From assembly GCA_001874305.1 (NCBI GenBank), contig MPCU01000003.1:434001-498000 (forward strand): DNA of 64,000 bases, written 5' to 3'. Position numbers and translations under genes: made by a program. Each line of letters starts with the position of its first letter. Position 1 is the first letter of the stretch. Origin of the DNA: Bacteriovorax sp. MedPE-SWde. GTDB lineage: Bacteria; Bdellovibrionota; Bacteriovoracia; Bacteriovoracales; Bacteriovoracaceae. The notes under the pieces are model-generated. The model worked only from the letters and a program-made list of their open reading frames with translations. It was not told where the DNA came from and did not search any database. Positions 35,501 through 55,077 of this stretch are shown here, piece after piece.

Positions 35501-35569
35501 CGCTATGCTTTGTAAGGTGACTATCGGTCAGATATAACTTCTCCACAAAACTAATTGAGGAGAGACAAT

Positions 35570-36076
35570 ATGAAAACAATCTTACTAGCAGCACTATCAA
35601 TTATGATTACACTAGCACCAGTTCAAAAAGCACACGCAATTGCCGGAACAGTTATGGCCGTTGGTGGAGTAGCAGGAGCAGGCGCAGTAGCACTAACAGG
35701 TTTAGCATCTCCAATCATTGGAACGGTAATCGCAACATCAGCAGATAGCTATGATGAGTGGGCCGGTCTTGGTGGCTTCATGGTGGGAACAGTAATCGGA
35801 ATCCTACTTTTAGACGAACAACAAGGTTCAGTAACTTTCAATACAATCAACGAAGCAACATTCAAAAACTTAAAGATCACTAAGTCTGAAGCAGCAATCT
35901 ACAACTCTGAAGTAGAGGAAGCGAATATTCTTTTTGAAGAAGTAAGCTCTGAGCTATCAGCATACTCTACAGTAGAAGAGTCAAGAGCACTTTGGAGTGA
36001 CATGAAAGATTTCGTATCACCAGAAACTTTCAAAGTAATGAAGAGACTTACAGAAAAAACTAATTATAAGAACTAA
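35570..36076 (+). CDS. Exported Gly/Ala-rich protein, paralog A
   Basis: A 168-aa protein. ATG 35570 is preferred over an upstream in-frame start at 35555 because GAGGAGAG is well placed and a signal peptide starts here (MKTILLAALSIMITLAPVQKAHA). The mature part begins with a Gly/Ala/Val-rich double hydrophobic segment (about 24-85). A charged domain follows with the shared block YNSEVEEANILFEEV and SRALWSDMKDFVSPETFKVMK. It is a paralog of the next gene, of identical length. Possibly a small membrane-inserting envelope protein; no family recognised. Confidence 0.72.
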   Translation: MKTILLAALSIMITLAPVQKAHAIAGTVMAVGGVAGAGAVALTGLASPIIGTVIATSADSYDEWAGLGGFMVGTVIGILLLDEQQGSVTFNTINEATFKNLKITKSEAAIYNSEVEEANILFEEVSSELSAYSTVEESRALWSDMKDFVSPETFKVMKRLTEKTNYKN

Positions 36077-36094
36077 TTTTTAATGGAGAAATAT

Positions 36095-36601
36095 ATGAAG
36101 AAATTATTAGCAGCAGTATTTTCAATAATGTTAACAGTAGCACCAGCACAAAAGTCAGAAGCAGCAGTAGCTGCAGTTATGGCAATGACTGGAGCAGGAG
36201 CAGCAGGGTCTGTAGCAATAGCTGGACTTGCCTCTCCATTTGTAGGCTCAATTGGATATGGAATCGCAGGTTCTGGAGATGATATGAGCCAAGGAATTGG
36301 TATTATCGTTGGAGCTTATATTGGTATTCTTGTCGGAGCTGTTCTTTTAGATGAAGAGAGCGGAGACATTCAATTCAATGAAATTGACTCTTCTGTAGCT
36401 GCACAATTGAATATCTCAAAAAGTGATATCGCTACTTATAACTCAGAAGTTGAAGAGGCCAACATCGTATTTGAAGAGGTAAGAGCTAACTTATCTGGAG
36501 AGTCTTCAGTAGAAGAATCTAGAGCAGTATGGAGTGATATGAAAGAATTCGTATCTCCAGCAACTTTCAAAGTAATGCAAAAGCTAGCAACGCAAGAGTA
36601 A
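36095..36601 (+). CDS. Exported Gly/Ala-rich protein, paralog B
   Basis: A 168-aa paralog of the upstream gene, 18 nt away. ATG 36095 has GGAG 6 nt before it and begins MKKLLAAVFSIMLTVAPAQKSEA, a signal peptide; ATG 36083 is unsupported. The hydrophobic Gly/Ala-rich middle and the C-terminal block (YNSEVEEANIVFEEV, SRAVWSDMKEFVSPATFKVMQ) match paralog A closely, while the middle has diverged. This is a recent tandem duplication. Function unknown. Confidence 0.72.
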   Translation: MKKLLAAVFSIMLTVAPAQKSEAAVAAVMAMTGAGAAGSVAIAGLASPFVGSIGYGIAGSGDDMSQGIGIIVGAYIGILVGAVLLDEESGDIQFNEIDSSVAAQLNISKSDIATYNSEVEEANIVFEEVRANLSGESSVEESRAVWSDMKEFVSPATFKVMQKLATQE

Positions 36602-36755: not shown

Positions 36756-37124
36756 GGGGGTGCCCTGGTTTCGACGAGATAGCAGACGGGTTTCCGGGCG
36801 TGTCCAGGTTGGTCTCCAAGGTCCTGGTTAAAAGGAGTCCAAATCTTAATTGCAGATGATTTCGCAATGCCAATGGCTGCCTAATAATTTAGGAATAGTC
36901 TTGTGAGGCGCTACTGCCAAGAAACAGAATGTAGCAACGCAGTTTGAGTAGGCTGTTTAACTCTGCTCTGAGGTTGTCGGTTCACCTCGTAATAACACAC
37001 CGAGGTTCGTTAGGTTCACGTAACCTAAACAGCCTTGTCTTCTGGCGATAAATGAAGACTACACACGTAGGCCGCACTTCAGACGTTGTTTCGGACGTGG
37101 GTTCGATTCCCACCACCTCCACCA
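36756..37124 (+). ncRNA. ssrA: tmRNA (SsrA), one-piece
   Basis: A 369-nt transfer-messenger RNA that rescues stalled ribosomes. The 5' acceptor strand GGGGGTG pairs with CACCTCC, followed by the encoded ACCA at 37121-37124. The tRNA-like 3' end has the T-arm GTGGGTTCGATTCCCAC. The tag frame begins GCA GAT GAT TTC and reads ADDFAMPMAA before two stop codons (TAATAA), with the hydrophobic -AA end needed for proteolysis. Pairing of GACGGG/CCCGTC-type pseudoknot regions is not traced base by base. Accessory genes start just after it, consistent with ssrA being a common integration site. Confidence 0.95.
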
Positions 37125-37228: not shown

Positions 37229-37247
37229 ATCACAGTAAATCACGTGA
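37229..37247. repeat. 19-bp direct repeat, left copy
   Basis: ATCACAGTAAATCACGTGA occurs here and again, with one mismatch (A to G), at 52548-52566. The two copies flank the Druantia-like and RES genes. The element may mark an attachment or recombination site of the island; alternatively it is a shared fragment of a decayed gene. Confidence 0.55.
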
Positions 37248-37336: not shown

Positions 37337-37690
37337 ATGAAGAGGAAGTTTAGATACAGAAGGACAGAAGAAATAAAGATTACTAATGAAGCTAGATTAT
37401 TGAGACAGTTGAGATTGAATGCTGGTTTATCTATTCGAGAAACAGGTAGAAGGTTAGGGAAGTCGGAGACGTATATTAGACATATTGAAAATGGAAGAAT
37501 GGATGTTCCAGTAAAGGAGGATGTGAAAAAGATACTAGAGGTATACGGAGTAAGTTGGAGAGTTTATTCAAGCAAGACAAAACATGAGGTGGAGCTTGAT
37601 TCAGTAATTCACTTAAAACACATTATTAGTAATTTAAGTCAATCAGAAGCTAAGATGGTTTTAAAGTTTATTCATTCAATTAAGTCCTAA
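37337..37690 (+). CDS. XRE-family helix-turn-helix regulator
   Basis: A 117-aa DNA-binding protein. The helix-turn-helix covers residues about 21-70: ARLLRQLRLNAGLSIRETGRRLGKSETYIRHIENGR, a typical Cro/CI-like pattern. The C-terminal 45 residues may dimerise. AGAGGAG precedes the ATG. It leads the accessory island and is a candidate regulator of the Druantia-like operon; inverted repeats in its own upstream region support autoregulation. Confidence 0.88.
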   Translation: MKRKFRYRRTEEIKITNEARLLRQLRLNAGLSIRETGRRLGKSETYIRHIENGRMDVPVKEDVKKILEVYGVSWRVYSSKTKHEVELDSVIHLKHIISNLSQSEAKMVLKFIHSIKS

Positions 37691-37858: not shown

Positions 37859-38032
37859 ATGAAAAAAATTAAAATAAAAATTAAAAACAATCTTGGAAGA
37901 GAGAAATCGGCAAATTTAAACATTCGAATTGAAGAAGGTTTGTTAGATGACTTTAGGGTTGTTTGTTCTGAGGTTTTGGAAATGTCTCAAGGAGAGGCAG
38001 TTAGAGAAGCCATAAGACAGATTGTAAAGTAA
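37859..38032 (+). CDS. Small ribbon-helix-helix (CopG-like) protein
   Basis: A 57-aa basic protein starting MKKIKIKIKNNLGREKSANL. The strand-helix-helix order fits a ribbon-helix-helix fold: ANLNIRIEEGLLDDFRVVCSE, then SQGEAVREAIRQIVK. The best ribosome site (AAGGAGAGG, 37831-37839) is about 20 nt from the ATG, so a non-ATG start further upstream (e.g. ATA at 37850) cannot be excluded. It lies 25 nt before the methyltransferase gene and may repress the defence operon. Confidence 0.6.
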   Translation: MKKIKIKIKNNLGREKSANLNIRIEEGLLDDFRVVCSEVLEMSQGEAVREAIRQIVK

Positions 38033-38057: not shown

Positions 38058-39203
38058 ATGACAAGGAAGTTGAAGTATTTAAGTTTATTTTCAGGACTAG
38101 GTGGCCTAGATTATGGATTGGAAAAAGCAGGGTACAATAATCTTGGATGCATAGAGTTTGATAAAGATTCTTGTGAAATGTTAAGACAGAATAGGCACTG
38201 GCAAGTCTTTGAAGGAGATATTAGAGATCTAAATATTTCAACAATTAAATCCAAAATAGGATTGAAAAAAGGAGAGCTTGATTTATTAGTAGGAGGCCCT
38301 CCTTGTCAGAGTTATTCAAAGTCAAGCTTTTGGAATGAAAGTACAAAAAGAGGTTATAAAGATAGCCGAGGTAAGTTGATCGATCATTATCTGAAATATG
38401 TAGAAGAATTTTTACCGAAAACATTCTTAATTGAAAATGTTCCAGGCTTTTGTTACTCAAAGCAAAATGGTGGAATGAAGACTATATTTAAGTTTTTGAA
38501 GTACTTAAAAAACTCCTTTGGCGTAGAGTACAAAATAGATTATAAAGTTTTGAATTGCATGGATTATGGAGTTCCACAGAAACGTGAAAGATTTTTCTTA
38601 GTAGGTAATAGAGTAAATAAAGACTTTTCATTTCCAGAGCCTTCACATGGAGACATTAGTTTAGGATTGCTACCATATAAAACAACAACTGATGCGTTTA
38701 AAAATATTCCTGATGACCACTTTAGGGATGAGGAATTAGCCGTAGGAGGAAAGTGGGCAGAGCTTTTACCATGTATTCCTGCTGGAGCTAACTATCAATA
38801 TTTTACCGAAAAAGGGGAGGGCAGAGATATTTTTGCTTACCGATCAAGGTACTGGACTTTTTTGCTTAAGCTAAGTCCTCGAGAGCCAAGTTGGACAATT
38901 CAGGCAAGTCCTGGTTCTTCAACAGGTCCTTTTCATTGGAAAAATAGAAAGCTCTCAAGTCGCGAGCTAGCCCGAATCCAAACTTTGCCTGATAGTATGA
39001 AGTTAATAGGTAGTAAAACTGCTCTGCAGAGGATGATTGGAAATGCAGTTCCATCACTAATAGGTGAGATTTTAGGAAGGGAGATTAGGAGCCAAATTTT
39101 CTCTCATCGTAGATATGATAAATACTCTTTGATGCCTGATATATCGAGTAAGGTATATCGTCCAAGAGTGATAAGAAATGTACCCCAGGCGTATCTAAGT
39201 TAA
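38058..39203 (+). CDS. druM: DNA (cytosine-5) methyltransferase, Druantia DruM-like
   Basis: A 381-aa C5 methyltransferase with motif I (SLFSGLGGLDYGLEKAGY, 9-26), motif IV catalytic GGPPCQSYSK (about 79-88, Cys83), motif VI IENVPGF, motif VIII QKRERFFLVG and motif X MIGNAVPSLIGEILGR near the C-terminus. It methylates cytosine at C5 using AdoMet. The target recognition region (about 200-290) is unassigned. Followed by two unknown proteins and a giant DUF1998-type helicase, it fits the methyltransferase of a type II Druantia system, presumably marking self DNA. Confidence 0.88.
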   Translation: MTRKLKYLSLFSGLGGLDYGLEKAGYNNLGCIEFDKDSCEMLRQNRHWQVFEGDIRDLNISTIKSKIGLKKGELDLLVGGPPCQSYSKSSFWNESTKRGYKDSRGKLIDHYLKYVEEFLPKTFLIENVPGFCYSKQNGGMKTIFKFLKYLKNSFGVEYKIDYKVLNCMDYGVPQKRERFFLVGNRVNKDFSFPEPSHGDISLGLLPYKTTTDAFKNIPDDHFRDEELAVGGKWAELLPCIPAGANYQYFTEKGEGRDIFAYRSRYWTFLLKLSPREPSWTIQASPGSSTGPFHWKNRKLSSRELARIQTLPDSMKLIGSKTALQRMIGNAVPSLIGEILGREIRSQIFSHRRYDKYSLMPDISSKVYRPRVIRNVPQAYLS

Positions 39204-39258
39204 GAATTCTTGACTCATGTACTTCATACTAATTCCGATATGTTAGTTGAGGTATTTC

Positions 39259-41172
39259 ATGAAATTAATTGATTTAATAACTAGCAGCAGAATTTCTGAT
39301 GATGAAGCGAATCGCATTCTTAATAAAATGAGAGAGGATGATGAGTTTTATCAATCACTAAAAAAACACTCTAAATATGCTTACGATAAGATATACAAAA
39401 GACTTTCAAATACCGCGGTTAAAAAGAAGTATAACAAAAAAAGAATGAATAGATTTATCGAAGACTACTTAAAAGACTTAAAAATTGTAGGAAGGCATGA
39501 TTCTAGATACTTGTCGGCATATAGAAATCTTCCCATTTTTATAGCTAAGAATGGTTTTATTGGAAATGCTTATCGAGACTTATATACTTTTCTAGTAATG
39601 GGACTTGTTGGTGAAAATGACAGTTATAGAAAACTTTTGGAAACTGTTGAAGTTGAAAAGGTTGGGGTAAAAGAATGTAAGGACGGTAATGAGTACCCCA
39701 CGATAAGTCTCTTTAGGTCTATCTTGAAAGAAGCAGGAAACTTTGGTTTAGGTACTAAAGATATCTTATATATATATGAGGTTATACATTTTGAAAGAAT
39801 GACTGCTGAAGAAGAAAATGAAGTCTTTCATGAGGAGCTTGTGGGTAAACAAAATAGGAACTCTCGGGAAAGCTCAAGCAATACTACTAAAGAGCTTATC
39901 AGCCAGGTTGAAAGTAAAATTGATAAAGTGCTTAAGGAACAAAATGTAAAACTAAAAGATATTAAATCAGATATAAAAAGTTTAAGTTATAAAGAAAGAG
40001 ATTTAGAAAAAAATAGTAATACACTTTTACAAGTAATTGACTCTTTAAAAGATGATATCAAAAAAACAGTGTCATTGGATGATATCGGAAAAATAAAACA
40101 AGATGTGAAATCTTGGGAAGATAAGATTCGCTCCTTGGAGCACAAGATGAAAAAAGAGATCTCTAGATTAGAGAAGGAGTTTAAATCAATAATATCCTCC
40201 GAGAAAAGTGTTGCTGAAGAAAGATTCTTGCAAAGCACAATTGAACATCAAAAAATCATAGATTCTAGAATTAGAGAAATCGTCGAGGATGAAAAAAGAA
40301 AATTTTACGAAATAGACTTTAGGCCAGTTTGGCTTGAGAAAGTTGAGGGGAAAAGGGAAAATATAGGGCAAGAAATAGTTTTTCTTTCAGCTTGGAAAGC
40401 TTACTTGTCTTCAAAGTATGAAATTTATCTAACTGATGAGCAACTTGTTGTTGCACACTGTATACTTAAGACATTTAGCTGTTCAATATTCAATGAGGAG
40501 AAAATCTTGCAGTCTTGGCTTGAACTGCTTGATGTAGAGGAGAATACATTTATAGAGTCAGCGAATCCCTTGTGGACTAGGAGGTTGGATTGGATTGGAT
40601 TATCAACTCACCTCGAGGATCAGTCTCTCCCAAGGAGATTTGGTATTATGAGAGATTTCGACACCGCAATAGTAGGGGCTTACCTAGTTCCTCAGTTGGC
40701 AAAATGGAATAAAAGTTCCATACAAGAGAGAATACATTTATATCTAGTTCCCGCTGGGAATAGTTTGGATAAACTCGACAGTACAGAAGTCGCACATCTT
40801 GCACCTGAATACGACATGAGTATTGCAGGAAGTTGTTCTCTCGAGAAAAACATTCCTACAAATCAGTTTCAATTTAATAAGTATATACCAAGAGTTCAAG
40901 AGAAAAACTTGAAAAGTTGGATTGTAAGACAGCCTGAAATTCTATTTAGAGAAGAATTAATTGTTGTTCCATCAAAAAGCTTTCAGATAGATATTCCTTT
41001 TGAACTCTTAGATAGCTTTAATTCTTTATATCCAAATCTAGATGTTTACTTAACTGAACAGTCTGCAAAAAGTGTTGCTTTAAAGCTTACGATTGGAGGC
41101 TACCTTTCTAAGAGATATGGTGAAGAAGTTGCTGACTCATACGTTGACTTTGTTATGGGGTACTTCGTATGA
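39259..41172 (+). CDS. Coiled-coil protein, putative DruF
   Basis: A 637-aa cytosolic protein; ATG 39259 with TGAGGT upstream is preferred over TTG 39247. The N-terminal 190 residues are helical and basic. Residues about 205-345 form a long charged coiled coil (e.g. SQVESKIDKVLKEQNVKLKDI, RSLEHKMKKEISRLEKEFKS). The C-terminal 280 residues are a mixed globular domain with no recognised motif. Its position between the methyltransferase and a 274-aa gene before the helicase matches DruF of type II Druantia; that name rests on gene order. Confidence 0.6.
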   Translation: MKLIDLITSSRISDDEANRILNKMREDDEFYQSLKKHSKYAYDKIYKRLSNTAVKKKYNKKRMNRFIEDYLKDLKIVGRHDSRYLSAYRNLPIFIAKNGFIGNAYRDLYTFLVMGLVGENDSYRKLLETVEVEKVGVKECKDGNEYPTISLFRSILKEAGNFGLGTKDILYIYEVIHFERMTAEEENEVFHEELVGKQNRNSRESSSNTTKELISQVESKIDKVLKEQNVKLKDIKSDIKSLSYKERDLEKNSNTLLQVIDSLKDDIKKTVSLDDIGKIKQDVKSWEDKIRSLEHKMKKEISRLEKEFKSIISSEKSVAEERFLQSTIEHQKIIDSRIREIVEDEKRKFYEIDFRPVWLEKVEGKRENIGQEIVFLSAWKAYLSSKYEIYLTDEQLVVAHCILKTFSCSIFNEEKILQSWLELLDVEENTFIESANPLWTRRLDWIGLSTHLEDQSLPRRFGIMRDFDTAIVGAYLVPQLAKWNKSSIQERIHLYLVPAGNSLDKLDSTEVAHLAPEYDMSIAGSCSLEKNIPTNQFQFNKYIPRVQEKNLKSWIVRQPEILFREELIVVPSKSFQIDIPFELLDSFNSLYPNLDVYLTEQSAKSVALKLTIGGYLSKRYGEEVADSYVDFVMGYFV

Positions 41173-41993
41173 CGCCTGAAAAGTTGTTTAAATGTGTATT
41201 AGACCAGTTAGAATTCTATGTCGATGGTTCATTAGAGAAATTCTCAGATGTTTTTGAAAAAGCTTGTCGCTTGTGTAGGGTAGAGGTCGACCAGGGCTAT
41301 ATGTCGTACATATATTTTGATTTCTTAATCATGATTGGTGTAATTGAGAAGTACCAAAGGTCTGGAAGGCATAGATGGAGATTTAACTCAATTATAGAGT
41401 CTAATGAAAATGTAATTAATACTGAGTTCGAGTCTAATCATGGCTTTGAGTTGTTTCCATCTAGAGAGTTTGTATCAGAGTTTATCGGGGATACTAGTCA
41501 TTGGCTAGATGTCGTAGTTTCAAATGAATTTGATGTAAGTACTGTTTGTAATTATTTAACAAGGCAATTAAGGTCTGAAAATCTGGAAGTTAAATACTCT
41601 CAAAAATTTAATTTCGAAAAAAACCAATGGAGTGGAGAGGAATTTTCTTATGATAAGTATGGTTTGTACCTCTTGGGCTTTCATAAGTTCCAAAGAACTC
41701 CAACAATCGTAAGCAAAGGTGTTTGCTTGAGTGTGTTTGACCTAGACTATAGCTTTTTATTTTATTTTTTAATAAATAAAGACTTTAGCCTGTTTGAACC
41801 AACCGAAGGAATTATAGTTATCCCTTGGAAAATAAAACTTCCTACCATAGTAAAAAGAATACTTTTCATCAACTCTTCTGTCGTTAGCTATCAATACGAA
41901 GGCGTAAAATTCACCTTAAATCAAAATGACAGATATTTAGAGATAATGAAAAAAATTGAAACATTGGAAATCGATTGGAAGGACATCGCATGA
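41169..41993 (+). CDS. Hypothetical protein, putative DruG
   Basis: A 274-aa protein whose ATG overlaps the upstream TGA and whose TGA overlaps the helicase ATG (ATGA both sides), implying strict co-translation. The N-terminal 75 residues (CRVEVDQGYMSYIYFDFLIMIGVIEKY, RHRWRF) look like a winged-helix-type domain; the rest is beta-rich. No catalytic motif is visible. It fits DruG of type II Druantia by position only. Confidence 0.55.
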   Translation: MTPEKLFKCVLDQLEFYVDGSLEKFSDVFEKACRLCRVEVDQGYMSYIYFDFLIMIGVIEKYQRSGRHRWRFNSIIESNENVINTEFESNHGFELFPSREFVSEFIGDTSHWLDVVVSNEFDVSTVCNYLTRQLRSENLEVKYSQKFNFEKNQWSGEEFSYDKYGLYLLGFHKFQRTPTIVSKGVCLSVFDLDYSFLFYFLINKDFSLFEPTEGIIVIPWKIKLPTIVKRILFINSSVVSYQYEGVKFTLNQNDRYLEIMKKIETLEIDWKDIA

Positions 41994-44900
41994 AAAAAGA
42001 CAAAAGCCTATATGATGTTTATGAAAGTATTAAGAGCGCAGTCTGTTCCTATATTGAGACAGCCTATTATGTTAATGATAATGATGTGATGGAAACCCGT
42101 AAAGGACTAATTACGGATGATGAAAAGGGGCCGATCTTTAAACAACCAAGATTTGAGTTTTTGAGAAGATATAAACTATCAGACGAACAGTTTTTTGAGT
42201 TCGTAAAAAAATTAGATGAGGTTAAAAATCTAAGTAAAGATGATTTTGAAGTATTTAAAGACTTCTTTATGCAATTTACCCCTGTTGCAACGAATAATGG
42301 AAAGGGATCACTGTTTTCACATCAGATACAATCTTTAAATGAGAGTATCGTTAAAAAGAGAAATGTTGTTGTTACAACGGGGACAGGGTCTGGTAAATCG
42401 TATTGCTTTATGTTACCTGTCCTTTTAAATATACTGTTAGAGGGAATACGAGATAGCTGGAAGGGACCTTCTGAGTCTCACGAAAAGTGGTTTTTGAATT
42501 CAAAAAAATTCTCACATAAAAGAAGAACTTCTAGTCGAAAAGCAGCAGTAAGGTGTCTGATAATTTATCCACTTAATGCGTTAGTGCAAGATCAAGTAGA
42601 GGAGTTAAGAAGTGTATTAAATTCTAAAGTCGCTAACGACATGTATGGGAAATTGTTTGATTCAGATAGAGTATATTTTGGTCAATATAGTGGGACAACA
42701 CTCGGTGGTGGGCGTTTCGATGACGCTAAAAATAGGAGAATTTCCGAAGTTCGTTCAGAGTTAAAAGAAATAAACAGAATATATGAAAGATCAGGTAAGG
42801 GTGATCCTACGATAACCAATTATGACGGTAGTGAACTTTTAACCAGATGGGATATGCAGGATTATCCGCCAGATGTTTTCATTACAAATTTTAGCATGCT
42901 ATCAATTATGCTAAATCGAGATCATGAACAAAAGATTTTTCAAAAAACTAGAGAGTGGCTAGAAGAAGATCGAAAGAATCATGTCTTTTACTTAGTTTTA
43001 GATGAACTCCATAGTTATAGAGGAACAGGAGGTACTGAAATCTCATGTATCGTTAAATCCTTCTTAGATAAAATTGGTCTTGCTCCTGATAGTCCCCAGT
43101 TAGAGGTGATTTGTACATCAGCCTCTCTTGAGGAAGGAAATGTAGAACGAGATAGTAAGTTTATTTCTGATTTCTTTGGACTTGATAATAAGGAGAGTTT
43201 CTTTACACAGATAGATGGCAACCGTGTAGATTACGGAGACACTAAAAATACATTAAAGTTTTTGAGAGAAAATAAAAGGTTATTTGAAGATTACTATAGT
43301 AATTCTTTAGGCTTTGATGAGTTTCAGCAAAGTCTAAGGCAAAAATCAAGTATGAAAGATGCGAATGTCGGTGAGATATTCAACAAATTAAATATTGAAG
43401 GACTTTTTGTAGAGATATCAGAAAAATATAAAAGTAAGAATCAAAGTTTAGATACCTATCCATTAAACTATATGGAGTTGGCAAAAGAGATATATGAGTT
43501 AGACGCCGCGCCAACACTAGGTTTATTAAAAGCTGTAACAAACGAACATGAGGCAGTTTCCAGCTATTTAGGAAAAACTCGTTTGCATATATTTGTTAAA
43601 AATTTAGGAGCATTGAGAGGATCGTTTAGGAAAGAAGGTGAGAAGACTAAGATTAAAGTTTACCCAGAAGTAACTCTTGTGTCAGAGGATTCCAAACTGA
43701 ACTACGAGCTAATGTACTGTCAAGAATGTGGAATGCCATATTTCAGAGGCTACCAATTAAAGGATGAAAGCACAGAAGAGTCAGGGAAGTTTGTTTTAAC
43801 TAATGAGCCAATAATTAAAAAAACTACAGATAAAATCAAGCAGGTTGTCTTCACTCCAAGTGTTGGTTCTTCCGACGTCGTTACATGTGGTCCAACTAAG
43901 GCAGATATTCATCTTGTGCAGGGTGGTTGGTTCTCTGGGTATCGAGTCAATGTATTTACTGGCGAAATGAAAACGGGAGTAGATAAAGAAAATTGGTTTC
44001 CTGTGGATGTCTATTTTTGTGACGAGTCTGATCCATCAAATGAAAATGTACTACCTTATCAGTGTAATTATTGTGAAGCAGATTGGCAGAGGAAACAGGG
44101 AGCAACCTCGCCAATACGTACCATGGGGACTGGTTACAATAAGGTTTCTCAAATTATTGTTGAACAGATTATGAAAGAACTTTCAAGCGTTGTGAATGAG
44201 GAGAAGTTTGAACGAGAGAAATTGGTTGTGTTTAGTGACAGTAGGCGAGATGCGGCAACCATTTCTGCCGAGTTACAACTAAACCACTACAGAGATGCAG
44301 TTAGGGCATGGGTTGAGTCGACATTAATATCTCAAAATGAACCTAATGCGGAATTAAATGACTTTATAGAGGCTGTTGAGCGAGGAAGTAATGATGAGAT
44401 TTTCAGAACTAAATATGCTATTGAAAATCCTCAAAATGCTCCAGTTTTAATGATGTATTTAAACAAGCAGCTTCCTCAGACTTCACCTTTGTATTCAAAA
44501 ATGGATGCAATAGTTCAGAGTAAAGACTCTAAACCCGTTAAGTTTTCAAAAATTCAAAATATAGTTTTCAGGAGTTTGATAAACTCTGGAATAAACCCTG
44601 CAGGACTTTGGTCCATAGGTAAAGTAAAAGAAAGGGCCGAGGATTGGAGATATGCTTTGGTAGAAAGTCCAGTCATTAACTCGGATGAAAGTGAACATGA
44701 AAATATTGAAAACATTAGAGAGAAGTATAGTGGAAAACTTGGAAAACAAATAAGGGAAATAGTTGCTGCACCTAGGGGAAGAGACTTTGAATCACTTGGT
44801 TACGGCTGGCTGACATACAATAGGGATATTCAGGTTCCAGCAGAGACAGAGTTCATAGACTCAATTATTAGGGTTCTTGCTTATCATTATAAAACTAGAG

Positions 44901-47578
44901 ATGAAGACAACTACTATAATGGGTTTGAGGGAGGCGTCCTTCCACCTTTTGTTGTTAAGTGGTTGGTTAATATCAAGCCAGAATTATTCCCAAAGGCAGA
45001 TAGAATAAGTGTTTCCCAAGTAGTTAGTGACCTCTTGAAACCTCTGAATATTGTGGATGCAAACTTTGTTATCAAAAGAGATAATTTGTATCTAAAAAAG
45101 TATGATGAGAAGTTTTGGGAGTGTGAAAAATGTGGTTCAATTCAACTGTTTCATTTTAATTACAGCTGTAGGACAGTAACCCACAAAAATGTCTGTGGGG
45201 GGAAATTAATTGAAGGAGATGTAGGTCAATTAAGTAATCGTGTGAATTATTATCGAGCTTTTACCAAGGATCGCAGGCATACTTCATCTTTGAGGTCCGA
45301 AGAATTAGTCGGACATACTGATAAAAAATATCAGAGGTTAAGACAATTAGTTTTTCAAGGAAAGTATATAGATGAATACGAAGATCATCTTAAAATGTTT
45401 GGCATAGGAGACAATAAAAAAGATAAACTCCAGTTTCTTAATAAGTACTACTCTATAGATCTTCTAAGTGTTACCACTACAATGGAGGCAGGTGTTGACA
45501 TTGGTGGTTTGAAATCCGTCTTTATGGGGAATATGCCACCAAAAAGATTTAATTATCAACAAAGAGCTGGTCGTGCAGGAAGAAGACTGGACAAGTTGTC
45601 CGTTGTTGTTACCTTCTGCAAAGGTCAAAAACATGATGAATATTACTTTGATAATAACTTCGATATGATTGGAGCAAAAGCGGTTTCACCTAGCTTGGAT
45701 TCATCTAACCCAAGGATCTTAATAAGAGTATTCATCAGGCAGTTAATATATAAATTTATTGAAAAAAATAATGATATTAAGAATGATATCATTTCTTCAG
45801 ATAGACCTGATGGAGATATCAATCAAGGTAACTTCGGAACACTGGACTATGCAAAAAAACTTCTAAGTTTGATCTATGGATTAAATGAAGACAGTTTTAT
45901 AGAAATGACGAAAAGTTTCTCCTATTTAACAGATAATACAGGCGTTGATCTGAATGATCTCTCAATAGAGGCAAAAAATAAGCTTAAAATCTTCATCGAT
46001 AACTTACCATTTTTAATCGCTAGGTTTGGACCGATGTATTCATTGTCTGAAGTTTTAGCTTTGGAGGGATTACTGCCAATATATGGAATGCCTTTAAGAA
46101 CAAGTAGTTTAATTCAGAGAGACCCAAATTTAAGACCAAACGACAGGAAGTGGCCGATTGCTAACGAGATAATTCAGCGAGGATCCGATATTGCGTTGTA
46201 TGAGTTTTCACCAGGACGTTCTGTTGTGAAGGAGAAGAATGTTTATACAATCAATGGTGTTTGTTGGCCAAAGCCCTCCGGAACAAAAGGACATAGTCAG
46301 ATAACATTTACCCCTCCTAGTGGTGCTGAATGTGTAGACATTGGTGTATGTAAGAAATGTGAAAACATCGATGTAAAACCAAAGAATCCTAATTGTAGTG
46401 CTTGTAATGCAGGAGGGGAAGACTACATAGTTATGGAGTCATGGAAACCTTCTTTTTATTTCTCTGATCAAAGGCCAAAAGAGTACGACGGATATATTGA
46501 TAGAAGAGATATAAATTCTCGTAAAGTCGCAATGCCTCTAGAGGTTCTAAGGGAGAATGCTAAAATAGATGACTTTAATTTAAAAATGACATCCAACGTA
46601 GGTAAAATTATGAATATTAACCTTAATAATGGGAATGGTTTTGAGTTTATAGAACTAGATGATTTCCCAATAAAAGGTGGATATTTAGAAATGGACTCTG
46701 GAAAAGAGTCTAAAACTCCTGAGTGGGTAAACTTAAGTAGTAAAAAAGAGCCTCTAGAGTCTAGAATCGCTCTCTTTTCTGAGAAGTACACGGATTTGTT
46801 GTTTGTAGAATTTGTAAAGGTTCCTGAATATTCTATGTTTTTTCACAAGACTAGCTCTGAAGATATAGCACTTAAAACAGCGTGGAACTCTTTTGGTGAG
46901 ATTGTTGCACAATCAATCTGCAATAAAGAAGACATTGAGAGAAACGAGATTGATGTTGGAGTGAAATACATACCTAATTCTCAAGATCGAAACGACTTTG
47001 GTAAGTTTTTGCTATATATCGCTGATAATTTAGATAATGGTGCTGGATATAGTTCTTCATATTCTAATCCTGAAAAAATTAAGCAACTATTAGTGTATGC
47101 TAAGAGCTACTTTGAAGGAAGACTATTTGGTAGTGAACATCTCTCAGGTTGTACATCATCATGTTACAAATGTTTACGAAATTATGAGAACAGGTTTACC
47201 CATAGCTTTTTAGACTGGAGACTTGGGCTAGATCTTTTAAATTTAGCAATTGATGAAAATTATGAATTATCACTTGAAAATGATATTTGGAGTTATTTAT
47301 TGAGAAATCATTTTTTGAATTGGATTAATAATGCTGTTGAAGATGCTAATTTCATAATTAAGAGAGAGGGGGATACAACATACTACTATAGCGAGAAAAA
47401 AGATATCGCGATTATTCCTTATCATCCCCTTGAAAATGTGGATTCTAGCTCTAATAGATTTAAAACAAGAAATATAAATAGGAAGATAAAAGCTAAGAAA
47501 AAATATTGGCTTGATATTTTAACATTTGAAAAGAATACGGCTGTCCTCCATCAGGCAACTAGAAGGGCTGAGGAGTAG
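41990..47578 (+). CDS. druE: Giant DUF1998-type helicase, Druantia DruE-like
   Basis: A 1862-aa superfamily 2 helicase-like protein; ATG 41990 is in the ATGA overlap, and the upstream TTG 41975 is unsupported. Motif I is VVVTTGTGSGKS (about 126-137), motif II VLDELHSYRG (about 336), motif III ICTSASLEE, motif V TTTMEAGVDIGGL, motif VI YQQRAGRAGRR (about 1189). Several CxxC zinc-binding pairs follow (CQECGMPY, CEKCGS, CKKCEN, CSACNAG). The DUF1998 region lies near 1680-1770, ending HLSGCTSSCYKCLRNYENRF. Size and domain order match DruE. It probably moves on DNA during anti-phage defence. Confidence 0.88.
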   Translation: MKKDKSLYDVYESIKSAVCSYIETAYYVNDNDVMETRKGLITDDEKGPIFKQPRFEFLRRYKLSDEQFFEFVKKLDEVKNLSKDDFEVFKDFFMQFTPVATNNGKGSLFSHQIQSLNESIVKKRNVVVTTGTGSGKSYCFMLPVLLNILLEGIRDSWKGPSESHEKWFLNSKKFSHKRRTSSRKAAVRCLIIYPLNALVQDQVEELRSVLNSKVANDMYGKLFDSDRVYFGQYSGTTLGGGRFDDAKNRRISEVRSELKEINRIYERSGKGDPTITNYDGSELLTRWDMQDYPPDVFITNFSMLSIMLNRDHEQKIFQKTREWLEEDRKNHVFYLVLDELHSYRGTGGTEISCIVKSFLDKIGLAPDSPQLEVICTSASLEEGNVERDSKFISDFFGLDNKESFFTQIDGNRVDYGDTKNTLKFLRENKRLFEDYYSNSLGFDEFQQSLRQKSSMKDANVGEIFNKLNIEGLFVEISEKYKSKNQSLDTYPLNYMELAKEIYELDAAPTLGLLKAVTNEHEAVSSYLGKTRLHIFVKNLGALRGSFRKEGEKTKIKVYPEVTLVSEDSKLNYELMYCQECGMPYFRGYQLKDESTEESGKFVLTNEPIIKKTTDKIKQVVFTPSVGSSDVVTCGPTKADIHLVQGGWFSGYRVNVFTGEMKTGVDKENWFPVDVYFCDESDPSNENVLPYQCNYCEADWQRKQGATSPIRTMGTGYNKVSQIIVEQIMKELSSVVNEEKFEREKLVVFSDSRRDAATISAELQLNHYRDAVRAWVESTLISQNEPNAELNDFIEAVERGSNDEIFRTKYAIENPQNAPVLMMYLNKQLPQTSPLYSKMDAIVQSKDSKPVKFSKIQNIVFRSLINSGINPAGLWSIGKVKERAEDWRYALVESPVINSDESEHENIENIREKYSGKLGKQIREIVAAPRGRDFESLGYGWLTYNRDIQVPAETEFIDSIIRVLAYHYKTRDEDNYYNGFEGGVLPPFVVKWLVNIKPELFPKADRISVSQVVSDLLKPLNIVDANFVIKRDNLYLKKYDEKFWECEKCGSIQLFHFNYSCRTVTHKNVCGGKLIEGDVGQLSNRVNYYRAFTKDRRHTSSLRSEELVGHTDKKYQRLRQLVFQGKYIDEYEDHLKMFGIGDNKKDKLQFLNKYYSIDLLSVTTTMEAGVDIGGLKSVFMGNMPPKRFNYQQRAGRAGRRLDKLSVVVTFCKGQKHDEYYFDNNFDMIGAKAVSPSLDSSNPRILIRVFIRQLIYKFIEKNNDIKNDIISSDRPDGDINQGNFGTLDYAKKLLSLIYGLNEDSFIEMTKSFSYLTDNTGVDLNDLSIEAKNKLKIFIDNLPFLIARFGPMYSLSEVLALEGLLPIYGMPLRTSSLIQRDPNLRPNDRKWPIANEIIQRGSDIALYEFSPGRSVVKEKNVYTINGVCWPKPSGTKGHSQITFTPPSGAECVDIGVCKKCENIDVKPKNPNCSACNAGGEDYIVMESWKPSFYFSDQRPKEYDGYIDRRDINSRKVAMPLEVLRENAKIDDFNLKMTSNVGKIMNINLNNGNGFEFIELDDFPIKGGYLEMDSGKESKTPEWVNLSSKKEPLESRIALFSEKYTDLLFVEFVKVPEYSMFFHKTSSEDIALKTAWNSFGEIVAQSICNKEDIERNEIDVGVKYIPNSQDRNDFGKFLLYIADNLDNGAGYSSSYSNPEKIKQLLVYAKSYFEGRLFGSEHLSGCTSSCYKCLRNYENRFTHSFLDWRLGLDLLNLAIDENYELSLENDIWSYLLRNHFLNWINNAVEDANFIIKREGDTTYYYSEKKDIAIIPYHPLENVDSSSNRFKTRNINRKIKAKKKYWLDILTFEKNTAVLHQATRRAEE

Positions 47579-47582
47579 GTTT

Positions 47583-48611
47583 ATGAAATATATTTCATTC
47601 ACGAATTATATTAAAGCAAGAAAGTGCAAGGCAAGCGTGATTACACCATCTAGGCTTTTGGGGAAGAGTACACCAAGACTGTATTCCAAGAGGCAGATTG
47701 TCGGATTTCTATTTCATGAAATAAAAGAAAAGTCTGCTGAATCCAACTTGCTTGATGATCATAGCTCTTATTTAAAATTTCTTGATGAATTTAAAAAGAA
47801 ATATTCAAATTCTTTTGATTTTGATTCACTTTCAAATCTAGATTTATGGTCGGAAACAAATGATATTCTTGGTTACATGATGGATATGAGTGACCAACTT
47901 CAGGATAAAGCTGAGAAGGTTTTTGCTATAAGAAGAGAGCAGGAATTTGTATCTAACGATAAGATTGTTTTGGCTAAGCCTGATTTAGTCTTAGAAAAGG
48001 GAGACGAAGTCGTAATTTATGACTTCAAGTCAGGTAGACTAAATGATTCAAAAGGAGAAACAAAAGAAGAGTATATTATTCAACTTCACTTTTATGCAGG
48101 TGTGCTAAATGATCATTATGGAGAAAAGGTCTATAAAGGGGTGTTGGAAAGCTATCTAGAGGGGACAAAGATATTAAGCCTAGATATGAATTACTCTAGA
48201 AATATAATTGCTGAAGCTAAAAGAATTCGTGAACAATTAAACGACTTATTTCCTGATAAACAAGTACCATTTGAGACATTTAATGAGAATGCTACTTATG
48301 ATATGAATAATTGTAAGTTTTGTAATGTGAGAGCCTTCTGTAAGGTTTATAAAAATGATTATGTTCCACCGGTTGATGACCAGCTTTATTGCTTCTCCGG
48401 AGCGGTGGAGAGTGTTGATTGGCCTGGTGAAGATAAGTTTGCCACTATCATTATTGCCTTGGGTGAAAAAAATATTTCAATTAAATCAATTCCATCAAAA
48501 TTTGCAAAGCTTGTAAGTACGGGGCAGCTCATTTGCCTGAATGATGTTAAGCTTATATCTGATGGAGAATACAACTACCTTCCTTGGAGCAGGTTGGAGG
48601 TGTATGAGTAA
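47583..48611 (+). CDS. RecB/Cas4-like PD-(D/E)XK nuclease with Fe-S cysteines
   Basis: A 342-aa protein; ATG 47583 has GAGGAG upstream, and an earlier ATG inside the helicase gene is rejected. It has the full RecB/Cas4 nuclease set: His45 in GFLFHEI, Asp134 in KPDLVLE, Asp147-x-Lys149 in IYDFKSG, and Gln167-Tyr171 (QLHFY). It also has Fe-S cysteines: Cys15 at the N-terminus and C244-x2-C247-x5-C253. Residues about 265-342 form an extra beta-rich domain. It starts 4 nt after the helicase stop and overlaps the next gene by 8 nt, so it belongs to the same operon. It probably cleaves or resects DNA. Confidence 0.85.
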   Translation: MKYISFTNYIKARKCKASVITPSRLLGKSTPRLYSKRQIVGFLFHEIKEKSAESNLLDDHSSYLKFLDEFKKKYSNSFDFDSLSNLDLWSETNDILGYMMDMSDQLQDKAEKVFAIRREQEFVSNDKIVLAKPDLVLEKGDEVVIYDFKSGRLNDSKGETKEEYIIQLHFYAGVLNDHYGEKVYKGVLESYLEGTKILSLDMNYSRNIIAEAKRIREQLNDLFPDKQVPFETFNENATYDMNNCKFCNVRAFCKVYKNDYVPPVDDQLYCFSGAVESVDWPGEDKFATIIIALGEKNISIKSIPSKFAKLVSTGQLICLNDVKLISDGEYNYLPWSRLEVYE

Positions 48612-50361
48612 AATTGTATGTGCTCTTTGGCGACATTTTGAACCATTTTTACTTAAACAAGTTCCTGTTTACTTCACTTTTAATAAAAAATTGATTGTAG
48701 ACATTGTTTCTAATGAACTAGAGCTTGTTGACCATGATGAGGCTTACCGTGAGTTTTTGAATTTGGCACGTTCATTTATGGTCACAAGTGAAAGCAAGGT
48801 TGCAATATGTGAAAACGTTTATAAAAATGTCTATAGAAACAAAAGCTCATCAATCGTTTTGATAGCATTACAAATATTAGCGGTTGAACAAATGGATAAA
48901 GACGGAGGGAATTATACTGAACATGCGTATTTCCCAAGATTAAGAAACTTAATAAATGAAAACTTAATGGAGGGGACCTCACTTCCTTTTGACTCTGATG
49001 AGTATGTTAGATTGTGGGATACATTCTCTGAAGAGGTCAGGAGTTATTATAGTGATAATAATTATGTCGTAACTTTTGACCTTGAAGCAACAAAAGCTTA
49101 CAAAAACAAAATTATGCCCTTATCTCAGGCTCTCTTATCTCATGCTGACCTTGTTAAAATGGGGTTAGCTCTTTATGAGAAGTATAGTGAAGTAAATGTA
49201 GATAAATTCGACTTTGAAACTTTTTTAAAAAATGAAAAAAGAATAGTGTCTCCACGAGGAAGAGAGTGCTTAAGTAAGAACGCTATAAGATCCAAGGTCG
49301 CTGAGCAATTTCGTGGGTTTATATCCTCTACAACAGTAGATCAACTTATTCATATTGATACAGAAATTAAAAAGAATATTGATCATCTTGACGTTGTTAT
49401 TAGGCTTGAAGAGGACCCATTTGAAGGTACTTTCGATTATTTGTTAGAGTTCAAAAAACAGAATAGAGATATTGAAGCTCTAGTGGGAATGAGCCAGCTT
49501 GTAACTTATTTAGATAAGTCGAAATATATGTGTGTCGCTAAGACGCTAGATTTTCTTCAGGGAGGGAATAAGTTTTCAAAAACTCTAAAATCAGAGTTAG
49601 TCTCATATCTTGTGCAAGACGAAAAAAATATTAATTATATCGAGACTTCACTAGAGATCAATAATTTAGATTACAATGTAGTAGACCTCGGAATAAATAA
49701 TCTTAAACTCGTAAAAATTATTGATAAACGTATTAAAGGTCGAGTTGTCGGGATCTTCAATGGTAGACTTAAGAATGGGACTGAGGCCGTTGCAATAGAG
49801 TTTGAAGGAGGTATTCAGATATCAAAAGCAGGATACTCATTTTTAAAAGGGTACTATCCTGAGAAGTTATTAATAGATGGTGTTGAATTTGCTGATACAG
49901 ATACAATAAAGGTAAATTCACAGACTATGGTCTGGCAATCATTTGTTGAAATGATGAAAAGAAATGAGAGAGATGAATATCAATTGTTAATTAATGGGAG
50001 CAAGATAAGATTGGCAATAGAGTCTCCCTCCACAGCAGAAAAAGCACCTGTTGGAATGAGAGTTGTTGAGAAAGTTATCAACATACATTCTGTCGCATGT
50101 GATTTTAACGAAAAGTTCATTTGCGGATTTAGCTTGAATAATATCAATAAACTAAGTTCAATTACACAGAGAGACTTCTTATACTTTATTTCAGATTTAG
50201 ATCACCTACATGAAGAAGTTGATAATGAAATGCTTCTTCTCGTTGAAGAAAGCATAAGAAGTAGTAAACACCTAGGCAAAACCCATAAAGAATACCTTAT
50301 ACTTAGGCTTAGAAGCACAAGAAAAGTACCAATAAGAATAATTAATCGACTAGTCTCCTAG
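48604..50361 (+). CDS. Unknown 585-aa protein of the Druantia-like operon
   Basis: A 585-aa protein; ATG 48604 has GGAGG upstream and overlaps the nuclease stop by 8 nt. I recognise no domain. The first 270 residues are helical. The middle (about 250-330) has acidic/Lys pairs within beta strands (DHLDVVIRLEEDP, FDYLLEFKKQNRDIEALVGMSQ), which resemble but do not complete a PD-(D/E)XK core. The second half looks beta-rich with a short C-terminal helical tail. No signal peptide or membrane segment. It is the last gene of the operon; a 355-nt gap follows. Confidence 0.7.
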   Translation: MSKIVCALWRHFEPFLLKQVPVYFTFNKKLIVDIVSNELELVDHDEAYREFLNLARSFMVTSESKVAICENVYKNVYRNKSSSIVLIALQILAVEQMDKDGGNYTEHAYFPRLRNLINENLMEGTSLPFDSDEYVRLWDTFSEEVRSYYSDNNYVVTFDLEATKAYKNKIMPLSQALLSHADLVKMGLALYEKYSEVNVDKFDFETFLKNEKRIVSPRGRECLSKNAIRSKVAEQFRGFISSTTVDQLIHIDTEIKKNIDHLDVVIRLEEDPFEGTFDYLLEFKKQNRDIEALVGMSQLVTYLDKSKYMCVAKTLDFLQGGNKFSKTLKSELVSYLVQDEKNINYIETSLEINNLDYNVVDLGINNLKLVKIIDKRIKGRVVGIFNGRLKNGTEAVAIEFEGGIQISKAGYSFLKGYYPEKLLIDGVEFADTDTIKVNSQTMVWQSFVEMMKRNERDEYQLLINGSKIRLAIESPSTAEKAPVGMRVVEKVINIHSVACDFNEKFICGFSLNNINKLSSITQRDFLYFISDLDHLHEEVDNEMLLLVEESIRSSKHLGKTHKEYLILRLRSTRKVPIRIINRLVS

Positions 50362-50716: not shown

Positions 50717-51184
50717 ATGTCTAAAAATAATAAAATTGGAAAGAGTAAACTAGAGATAGTTCAGGATAATTCACTTTATTGGTGCATTGAAAAAGAGAAT
50801 GTTTTCTCTGATGTGAAAAATCACTTTTGCTTTGATATATCTCTTAATGATCGTATTGAAGGTGACTATTGCTGGTATAGGGCTTTAGATGAAAAAGGTC
50901 TCACTTTGGGTTATTGTTGGGTACGAGCTGACGATGAGGTCTTTGAAGTCTCTATTGCCGTTTCTAAGCAATTTAGAGGTAATGGTGTAGGTATGAAGCT
51001 CTTTGAATTTGCACTTTCAAGAAATGAAAATTCAAAAGTAATTTCTGCAGTAATAATGCCTGAAAATAAGAATAGGGATAAGATATATAAATGGTTACTT
51101 CGACAAGGGTTTGAAGAAACTCCAGGAAATGAAAGAATCTTATGGAATAATGGACAGAATGTTACAGTTTATAAGCAGGTTTAG
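50717..51184 (+). CDS. GNAT-family acetyltransferase
   Basis: A 155-aa N-acetyltransferase fold. The acetyl-CoA-binding motif A is SVAVSKQFRGNGVGMKLFEFAL-like (actual: IAVSKQFRGNGVGMKLFEF, about residues 77-95) and motif B is NKNRDKIYKWLLRQGFEE. GAAGGAG lies upstream. It is 6 nt before a HEPN/RES toxin-like gene. GNAT proteins can acetylate tRNA, antibiotics or proteins; here it may modify or be the partner of the RES protein. Target unknown. Confidence 0.85.
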   Translation: MSKNNKIGKSKLEIVQDNSLYWCIEKENVFSDVKNHFCFDISLNDRIEGDYCWYRALDEKGLTLGYCWVRADDEVFEVSIAVSKQFRGNGVGMKLFEFALSRNENSKVISAVIMPENKNRDKIYKWLLRQGFEETPGNERILWNNGQNVTVYKQV

Positions 51185-51190
51185 GAAAAT

Positions 51191-52372
51191 ATGGGTTTAA
51201 TGAAAAGTTATATTGGTCGTGAGCATATGCTAGTCGCTGGTAGTGTTTGTTGGGAGTGTTTTGAGAACGAAGGCATACAGAATTATATAAAAGAAAACTA
51301 TAACGGGAAAGATTGTGACTATTGCTCTAGAGAAAATAAATCATATGACTTGTCTGAGGTAATAGATTTTGTGTATTCCTGTTTACGTGATCGTTATGAA
51401 AATCCAGCAAATGGAATGGGGTATAACTCCAGAGAGGGAGGTTATCAGGGGCAAACATATGACTCTCATGAAATATTAGATGAGGTTGGGTTGGGTTGTG
51501 ATTGTTCTTCTTTGTTCGAAGATGTTGCAAATAATCTACCTGAAGCTCATTGGTGTAAAATCGACCCCTATCAACTGTGGCCACATGAAGAAGTCAATTA
51601 TGATTGGCAAAACTTTTCTAACTTATTAAAGCATAAGTGTAGGTTTCACTTCTTACATCATGGAAAGAAGCATGATGATTACTTTTCTGGAGAGCCTAAG
51701 TTGTTATCCTCGATTCTTGAATATATTGTGGATACCTTTATAGAATGTAGCATTGTTAAAAAAATTCCGGTAGGGCATGTTTTTCATCGAGCAAGATATT
51801 TTGATGAAAATCATCCTTTTGATATGGTTGTAGGAGAGATTGCCCCTCCTCCTGAAAGTCTAGCTTCGAGCTCTAGAATGAGTCCTGCTGGTATACCAAT
51901 GTTCTATGCCGCTGAGAATTTAGAGACGGCATTAAGAGAGATTAAAATTGAAGAAGGAAAGAGTGCTGTAGTCGCAGAATTTAAAAACTCCATTGAGCTA
52001 AGAGTTATAGACTTAACAAGGTTGCCTAGTATTCCTGATATCTTTGATCAATACGATGTTGCAGAAGAAACAGGAATTCGTTTTATTAATGATTTTAAGC
52101 GGGATTTTGTAAAAGTGATTAACAAAGATGGAAAAGAGCATATAGAGTATGTTCCAACACAAGTTGTATCGGAGTATATAAAGTATAACGATGATAAATT
52201 TGATGGAGAGGTACATGGTTTTGCTTACCCGAGTTCTGTTACTGGTGATAAAGCCTACTGTCTATTTTTAGATCGTTATCAATGTGGGGTAATTAAGGAA
52301 GGTTTTTTTAGTAATGAAGAGTCTTTTGTTGTAGATATTGTTTCTGACTCAATTAAGAAAATTGTTAGATAG
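51191..52372 (+). CDS. HEPN/RES N-terminal domain plus RES-domain protein
   Basis: A 393-aa protein. The N-terminus has CxxC pairs (CWEC at 17-20, CDYC about 38-41) and a helical, His/Glu-rich region that matches the HEPN/RES N-terminal type. The RES domain (about 195-360) begins GHVFHRARYF and contains ASSSRMSPAGIPMFYAAENLETALREI, keeping the Arg, Tyr/Ser and Glu positions typical of RES NAD-targeting toxins. No Xre-type antitoxin is adjacent; the GNAT gene is the only partner. ATG 51200 is an alternative start. RES toxins degrade or transfer from NAD; that activity here is inferred. Confidence 0.82.
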   Translation: MGLMKSYIGREHMLVAGSVCWECFENEGIQNYIKENYNGKDCDYCSRENKSYDLSEVIDFVYSCLRDRYENPANGMGYNSREGGYQGQTYDSHEILDEVGLGCDCSSLFEDVANNLPEAHWCKIDPYQLWPHEEVNYDWQNFSNLLKHKCRFHFLHHGKKHDDYFSGEPKLLSSILEYIVDTFIECSIVKKIPVGHVFHRARYFDENHPFDMVVGEIAPPPESLASSSRMSPAGIPMFYAAENLETALREIKIEEGKSAVVAEFKNSIELRVIDLTRLPSIPDIFDQYDVAEETGIRFINDFKRDFVKVINKDGKEHIEYVPTQVVSEYIKYNDDKFDGEVHGFAYPSSVTGDKAYCLFLDRYQCGVIKEGFFSNEESFVVDIVSDSIKKIVR

Positions 52373-52498: not shown

Positions 52499-52762
52499 GT
52501 AATATTAATAACTTATACAGAAGAAGCTCAATGGTCTTCTCTTCTTCATCACGGTAAATCACGTGAAATCACTCCTGTTGCATCAATTTTGTGGTTAAGA
52601 CATCAAGTTAGTCATAGGCAGTACAAAGCAAGGTTAAGAGGAGGGTTCGTTTCCAAAGATCCTAGGGAGGAGTTATATAAAATAACAAGATATGCAGATA
52701 CTGAAAATGTAAAGGTAATTTTGAAGATGGCAAAAGCAGTTCTAAATATTAAAGAAGAGTAA
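52499..52762 (+). pseudogene. 5'-truncated open frame, remnant gene
   Basis: An open frame of about 87 codons ends at TAA 52760-52762 and has no usable start or ribosome site. It includes QWSSLLHHGKSREITPVASI then LWLRHQVSHRQYKARLRGGF and ends AVLNIKEE. The composition looks like real protein, so it is probably the 3' part of a decayed gene. The right copy of the 19-bp direct repeat (52548-52566) lies inside it, at HHGKSRE. I do not recognise the family. Confidence 0.4.
52548..52566. repeat. 19-bp direct repeat, right copy
   Basis: ATCACGGTAAATCACGTGA differs from the left copy (37229-37247) at one base. It sits between the RES gene and the Septu-like genes, within the truncated open frame. 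Confidence 0.55.
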
Positions 52763-52816
52763 TTTTTAGTTTCACTTTAATTATTGTACTATTTTATAGA
52801 ATAGGAGTTGTTAATT

Positions 52817-54286: not shown

Positions 54287-55077
54287 GGAGAGTAAGGGTT
54301 AAAGTTAAGCATAATATGAAACTATTTAGTAAAGTATCAGCAAACAGACAGTTAATTTTAACAAGAAATACTCTACGGGGATTAGCTAATTTAGTAAGTG
54401 CAACATATCGGCTTTATATGAGGCAAAAACCAAGATGGGGTAGCTTTACGCCTAATCGTACATTGGCTGCCCATAGAACGATATTGGAAGCTAATTATAA
54501 TAATCCAATGATGGAAGATATTAAAAGTGAAATAAGACAAAATGGTAAAGATTCAGGTGATTGTCCATTCTGTGGTTTCGGAGAAATTACAGATGTTGAT
54601 CATTTCTTACCATCAAGTTCATATCCTGAATATTCTATATACACTAATAATTTAATTCCATCATGTCATAGATGTAACAACTTAAAAAACAACTCTGGCC
54701 TAGTAAATTTTCATCCATATTTTGATAATGTTATAAATTCAGAGTTCTTAGTATGCAACCTGACTAACAAACGACAAACGGTACTTTTTTCAGGGAGATT
54801 TTCAATTGATTATTCATTGTTAACTACGACAGAAAGCTCTTTAGTTAATGATGTTTATGGTAAGTTAGATCTAATTGAACGTTTTGAGAGCGTAGTTACG
54901 AACCATGTTGAAGGAATTCGAACTGATTACGATAAAATTAGGAACTTTGTTACAATACAAATCTTTCTTCAATCGCACTATGATTCTAAGCTTCAATTAC
55001 ATGGGCCAAATCACTATAAGACAGCTACAGCAAAGTCCCTTTTAAATAATGTAAGCTTACTTAGTACAATATGGTAA
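54283..55077 (+). CDS. ptuB: HNH endonuclease, Septu PtuB-like
   Basis: A 264-aa protein with a GTG start overlapping the upstream stop (GTGA) and GGAG 6 nt earlier; ATG 54316 is an alternative. The HNH region (about 92-150) has CPFCGFGEITDVDHFLPSSS with zinc CxxC and catalytic Asp-His, then NNLIPSCHRCNNLKNNS with the second CxxC and Asn. Flanking helices fit PtuB-type nucleases. It is the effector nuclease of the Septu-like pair. Confidence 0.85.
   Translation: MRRVRVKVKHNMKLFSKVSANRQLILTRNTLRGLANLVSATYRLYMRQKPRWGSFTPNRTLAAHRTILEANYNNPMMEDIKSEIRQNGKDSGDCPFCGFGEITDVDHFLPSSSYPEYSIYTNNLIPSCHRCNNLKNNSGLVNFHPYFDNVINSEFLVCNLTNKRQTVLFSGRFSIDYSLLTTTESSLVNDVYGKLDLIERFESVVTNHVEGIRTDYDKIRNFVTIQIFLQSHYDSKLQLHGPNHYKTATAKSLLNNVSLLSTIW

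Follow-up and report, generated by a model that had tools for sequence, protein, structure and literature searches.

A likely anti-phage operon of Druantia type II/IV from a rare, deep DruE lineage in Bacteriovorax

What kind of defence system is encoded when a C5-cytosine methyltransferase, a coiled-coil protein, a YprA-family helicase and a Cas4-like nuclease stand side by side with two further, highly diverged proteins? The question is raised by six genes in the window, by which we mean the whole stretch of 64,000 nucleotides analysed here (G000:C9:434001-498000), part of a 3.76 Mb genome. An earlier note read them as a Druantia type II operon in the order druM, druF, druG, druE, extended by a nuclease gene and a gene for a 585-aa protein of no recognised family, and considered a new subtype. 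An ORF check found its coordinates to be correct, together with the 4 nt that separate the druE stop from the druK ATG and the 8-nt overlap between druK and druF; X and druL overlap by 4 nt. Long ORFs, close spacing and an order kept in other genomes rule out chance, and the locus is almost certainly a Druantia-family operon for defence against phages (Table 1). The reading that we favour, and regard as likely, is a Druantia II/IV-type operon of a rare, deep lineage, arranged druM - X - druL - druE - druK - druF, with the mechanism proposed below.

Table 1. The operon and neighbouring features, in window coordinates
Feature	Position	Strand	Basis
Two tandem paralogous small-protein genes	35555-36601		
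tmRNA gene (ssrA), upstream of operon	36756-37124		
ATCACNGTAAATCACGTGA, first copy	37229-37247		
XRE-type regulator, between tmRNA gene and operon	37337-37690		
57-aa ORF, possible ribbon-helix-helix repressor	37859..38032	+	read from sequence
Operon of six genes	38058-50361	+	
druM, C5-cytosine methyltransferase, 381 aa	38058..39203	+	PADLOC, Pfam, motifs
X ("P2"), 637 aa from ATG 39259, 641 aa from TTG 39247	39259..41172	+	read from sequence and orthologues
druL homologue, 274 aa	41169..41993	+	clade-excluded DruL profile, HHalign
druE, YprA-family SF2 helicase, ATG 41990	41990..47578	+	PADLOC, motifs, tree
druK, PD-(D/E)XK nuclease of Cas4/AddB type, 342 aa	47583..48611	+	PADLOC, Pfam, residues
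druF homologue, 585 aa ("P6")	48604..50361	+	PADLOC DruF4, clade-excluded profile
GNAT acetyltransferase, then toxin-like protein	50717-52372		
ATCACNGTAAATCACGTGA, second copy	52548-52566		
ATPase and HNH pair	52808-55077		
DDE transposase/integrase-core gene (rve)	55910-57124		

The family assignment begins with the helicase. DruE reaches 1062 bits against the PADLOC model DruE2 (over 14-1855) and 1015 bits against DruE4 over its whole length, Pfam recognises DEAD/Helicase_C, and a relative of solved structure, 9wae, matches at 616 bits; the helicase motifs are established (Walker A GTGSGKS, DELH, QRAGRAGR and CxxC). The methyltransferase matches DruM2 (3e-73) and MTase_II (1.5e-79) in PADLOC and DNA_methylase in Pfam (4e-58), with FSGLGG, PPCQ and ENV all present. 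Membership of the helicase in the YprA family, and the resemblance of the methyltransferase to DrmMII (1.7e-46), would also suit a variant of DISARM, BREX or ARMADA, yet the helicase models of DISARM and BREX fall far below DruE (34 bits for DrmA, within the DruE motifs, and 27 for BrxH, against 1062) and the operon has no separate DrmB-type, PglX or BrxHII gene. Contradicted by the profile scores, such a variant is highly improbable, which bears out the earlier preference for Druantia.

Within that family, the placement of the locus follows from its relatives. A DruE alignment scan of 84,980 species genomes returned 302 relatives, from which 80 loci were kept, and plasmid loci were added; gene content was counted with home-made profiles in 88 loci, 77 of them with enough sequence for the druK test. 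The nearest DruE proteins are those of L028, from a Bdellovibrionales MAG (37%), and L090, from Microbulbifer rhizosphaerae (33%), all others being much farther. The three form one branch (FastTree 100; IQ-TREE SH-aLRT 100, with long branches as a caveat) and constitute one separate, deep and well-supported DruE lineage, which has no match among viral contigs; the Druantia variant of the window is rare. Conservation of the gene set and its order is established: L090 repeats the order of the window as druM (441) - 651 - 324 - druE - nuclease (380) - 629 aa, and L028, cut at its 5' end, runs druL - druE - nuclease - 589 aa, followed by an inverted druM downstream. Across the family druF - druL - druE is the usual arrangement: 79 of the 88 loci have druF on the upstream side, and 34 have a druM no more than 6 kb away. 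Of the proposed new subtype, the separate deep lineage with a gene order of its own holds, but the case extends no further than a variant. A 57-aa ORF located 25 nt 5' of druM was overlooked in the first reading; its match to Pfam RHH_1 (E 0.072) is short of the cut-off, no ribbon-helix-helix ORF is seen 5' of druM at L090, and whether it is part of the operon is uncertain.

Druantia type II consists of DruM, DruF, DruG and DruE, and the cluster could be taken for this canonical set with two unrelated genes downstream. A druM at the upstream end and DruE2 as the best-scoring DruE model speak for that reading, but the identities of the remaining genes contradict it. To keep the test from being circular, new profiles were made with only those loci that lie outside the lineage of the window, L028 and L090. 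With these clade-excluded profiles the third gene is DruL, weakly in the window (E 1.1e-5) and more clearly at L028 (9e-7) and L090 (4e-20), and HHalign gives 90% over 251 columns; PADLOC finds no Dru match for it, its DruL model matching in L090 only. The last gene, which PADLOC assigns to DruF4 through its N-terminal part only (2.8e-8), is recovered by the clade-excluded DruF profile at E 2.7e-26 in the window, 1.8e-38 at L090 and 5.6e-18 at L028, with an HHalign value of 99.7% over 459 columns. By these profiles, the 585-aa protein belongs to DruF but has diverged, and its gene has shifted from the usual site 5' of druE to the 3' end of the operon. DruG models matched neither the operon genes nor four L090 proteins, although HMMER filters can lose weak matches, and the profile search has accordingly confirmed DruM2, DruE2/DruE4 and DruF4 but not DruG. 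A Druantia II/IV-type operon was thus correctly recognised in the earlier note, but its druF is X, its druG is DruL, and its two genes beyond Druantia are DruK and a relocated DruF, so that the 585-aa protein does not lack a family. Both are found next to DruE within the lineage as well as outside it, and the canonical type II reading is very unlikely.

A structural model of DruF (pLDDT 72, 50 sequences) gave no Foldseek match in the PDB at E 0.001. Its best VIA-align hit, to FERM subdomains over 79 residues (Z 6.3), was judged a common arrangement and set aside. Searches of genome contigs and plasmids with this protein gave no match.

The nuclease is matched by PADLOC as DruK (1.1e-10) and Cas4 (3.4e-12) and by Pfam as PDDEXK_1 (7e-11). 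A clade-excluded DruK profile, whose outside set had first been collected by iteration from lineage seeds, recovers it at 2.8e-27 in the window, 9.7e-41 at L090 and 9.4e-20 at L028; PADLOC's own DruK models independently match the window, L090 and L044. DruK is a family in the PADLOC-DB of 2023, and we found no paper in the literature searched that names it together with Druantia. Its nuclease motifs are established, the residues listed earlier (His45, Asp134, Asp147-x-Lys149, QxxxY and four cysteines) all being present, as C15, H45, D134, D147-x-K149, Q167-x3-Y171, C244, C247 and C253. Across three DruK proteins of only 17-19% identity these are invariant, except for D147, which is D, E and D (Glu in one relative). 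RecB/AddB/Cas4-type nucleases with an Fe-S cluster show this residue pattern, and DruK is therefore expected to be an active enzyme, with four putative Fe-S cysteines.

How closely does DruK belong with DruE? Both additional genes are conserved beside DruE in other genomes, and 22 of the 77 testable loci, spread over many phyla, carry druK as the next gene after druE. DruK is absent from the other 55 and hence not essential to all Druantia II/IV systems, and its presence takes about 9 changes on a DruE tree of 46 rows. Such frequent loss and gain, together with a druM that is separate or inverted at several loci including L028, would fit a patchwork in which a core of druL, druE and druF lies next to a methyltransferase and a Cas4-like nuclease that are independent of it and act separately. 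Yet the genes overlap or adjoin, DruK is found repeatedly and directly 3' of DruE in distant phyla, and druM shares the strand of the other genes in both the window and L090. A patchwork is accordingly an unlikely explanation, if less so than the canonical arrangement, and a single operon of the Druantia II/IV type is preferred.

The second gene, X, the only truly unfamiliar one in the operon, encodes a helical N-terminus, a coiled coil at about 197-355 and a conserved C-terminal part. It matches no Dru family in PADLOC and none of the clade-excluded DruF, DruL and DruK profiles, and plasmids gave no match. Orthologues are found at L090 (E 7e-7) and L115 (E 3.5e-15). Among 369 genomes of the window's phylum, strong matches are confined to the window's own genome and G343, the MAG of locus L028, and among 391 genomes of the Microbulbifer order to the Microbulbifer genome. 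In G343 the gene lies at a contig end, in the right direction and cut by the contig edge, in agreement with the truncation of L028 at its 5' end, although the join is not proven. X accompanies the DruE lineage of the window in 3 of 3 members. Weak matches in G208, G046, G203 and G027 were discarded as confined to the coiled coil; the DruE of the lineage is absent from G208 and G027. An AlphaFold model from two sequences (pLDDT 38) was unusable.

Beyond the lineage, distant relatives of X stand immediately 5' of druL in loci of Poribacteria, Gastranaerophilales and Bacteroidota. There, and also in a Treponema, a gene of 560-700 aa lies between druF and druL. With the X profile the gene of Poribacteria is matched at 1.6e-11, and HHalign gives 96.6% over 537 columns for that gene, 89.6% for the Bacteroidota set and 40% for the Gastranaerophilales set. 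Because coiled coils match one another by chance, this segment was removed from X before a retest. Among 4370 ORFs the C-terminal part then found, besides X itself, only genes between druF and druL, each weakly (E 0.03-0.3), and its HHalign values of 16-39% are weak, yet well above the DruF, DruL and DruK controls. On the DruE tree, an extra gene before druL requires 3 changes against 12.1 in shuffles (0/500).

The Poribacteria X in turn matches DruC1 of type I at 1.3e-20. A DruC1 search across 321 genomes had returned coiled-coil noise only, up to 33.7 bits, so that the coiled coil was left out when DruC matches were checked again, and the Poribacteria match persisted (9e-9). The window's X has no direct match to DruC; a far relationship between the two is suggested by these intermediates, not shown. 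It is a tentative idea, somewhat short of probable, that X descends from the same stock as type I DruC and, much diverged, is carried by several deep Druantia II/IV lineages; the operon would then link type I with II/IV and count as a subtype in its own right, unusually complete in its parts (methylase, scaffold, helicase and separate nuclease). The DruC1-like genes themselves (L066:7006-9096 and L071:5385-7415) lie between druF and druL, and these Poribacteria loci combine components that are assigned to types I and IV.

The surroundings of the operon suggest how it arrived. An XRE regulator stands beside the tmRNA gene also in the congener L163 (52% identity). Since L163 keeps this pair and no island genes were found there in the 7.7 kb beyond it, the island was probably inserted behind a conserved tmRNA/XRE pair. 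As for integration at ssrA, no copy of the tmRNA 3' end lies downstream within the window, so no att site is shown. The two small proteins encoded just before the tmRNA gene (173 and 172 aa) have signal-peptide-like starts, and a relative of their genes adjoins tmRNA in L163. One copy of the near-identical 19-nt motif ATCACNGTAAATCACGTGA precedes the XRE gene and the other lies about 240 nt before the ATPase and HNH pair; two matches occurred in 0 of 100 shuffles, and a common operator for the XRE regulator is one conceivable role of the motif. The pair corresponds to the PADLOC candidate PDC-M01A/B (3e-97, 4e-35), also matches PtuA, and by these profiles is a second, Septu-like defence system. 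Between both defence systems, the acetyltransferase gene is followed by one for a protein with HEPN/RES-NTD1 and RES domains, and the transposase gene lies on the far side of the defence genes.

In the literature no established mechanism was found for Druantia I, II or IV, many of whose proteins are without an assigned function. DruE of type III engages and processes ssDNA-containing replication intermediates, and the authors regard DruE as a common Druantia core whose partners are specific to each subtype (PMC13192584). In types I and II, the nuclease domain at the C-terminus of DruE is reported to be inactive (PMC12458937), which a nuclease separate from the helicase fits; type III DruE carries its own nuclease. 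Activity, methylation target and mechanism we infer as follows: in this operon a helicase probably drives the processing of phage DNA that lies exposed, DruK being the cutting subunit and DruM marking self. DruM would methylate host DNA, which would thereby be spared; DruE would load where phage DNA, replicating or unmodified, exposes single strands, and then translocate; DruK, as a separate Fe-S PD-(D/E)XK nuclease, would cut the DNA opened by DruE; and X, DruL and DruF may form a sensing or loading scaffold that activates DruE. The lineage suggests that DruK is often the cutting enzyme of such Druantia systems, and, by keeping DruM, X, DruL, DruE, DruK and DruF together while having DruF in a new place, it provides a natural experiment on which of these parts form a unit.

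Druantia type I comprises DruA-E, with which the window shares DruE and possibly, by way of the Poribacteria X, DruC; no DruA model matched, and a search of six related genomes with the DruB1 and DruD1 profiles turned up nothing clear. Equating DruB with DruF and DruD with DruL was tried and rejected, neither profile having a match that could be placed at any Druantia locus. The Poribacteria loci L066 and L071 (druF - X - druL - druE - druK), for whose arrangement we found no published name, hold the same set of X, DruL, DruE, DruK and DruF, but have druF first, no druM seen nearby and an X that is recognisably DruC1-like. Type IV is made up of DruE, DruF and DruL without DruM (PMC8565338). 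The window also has these three and no DruG, but it adds druM and X, places druF last and not first, and is very divergent in sequence. PADLOC models miss or barely reach its DruL and DruF, and such systems are as a result probably under-counted or mis-typed. As in type II, druM comes first, DruE2 is the best model and DruF is present, whereas DruG is not detected, DruL is separate, DruK and X are added and druF is relocated. The operon fits the definitions of type II and type IV only in part. We class it as a new variant within Druantia type II/IV, not as a new kind of system.
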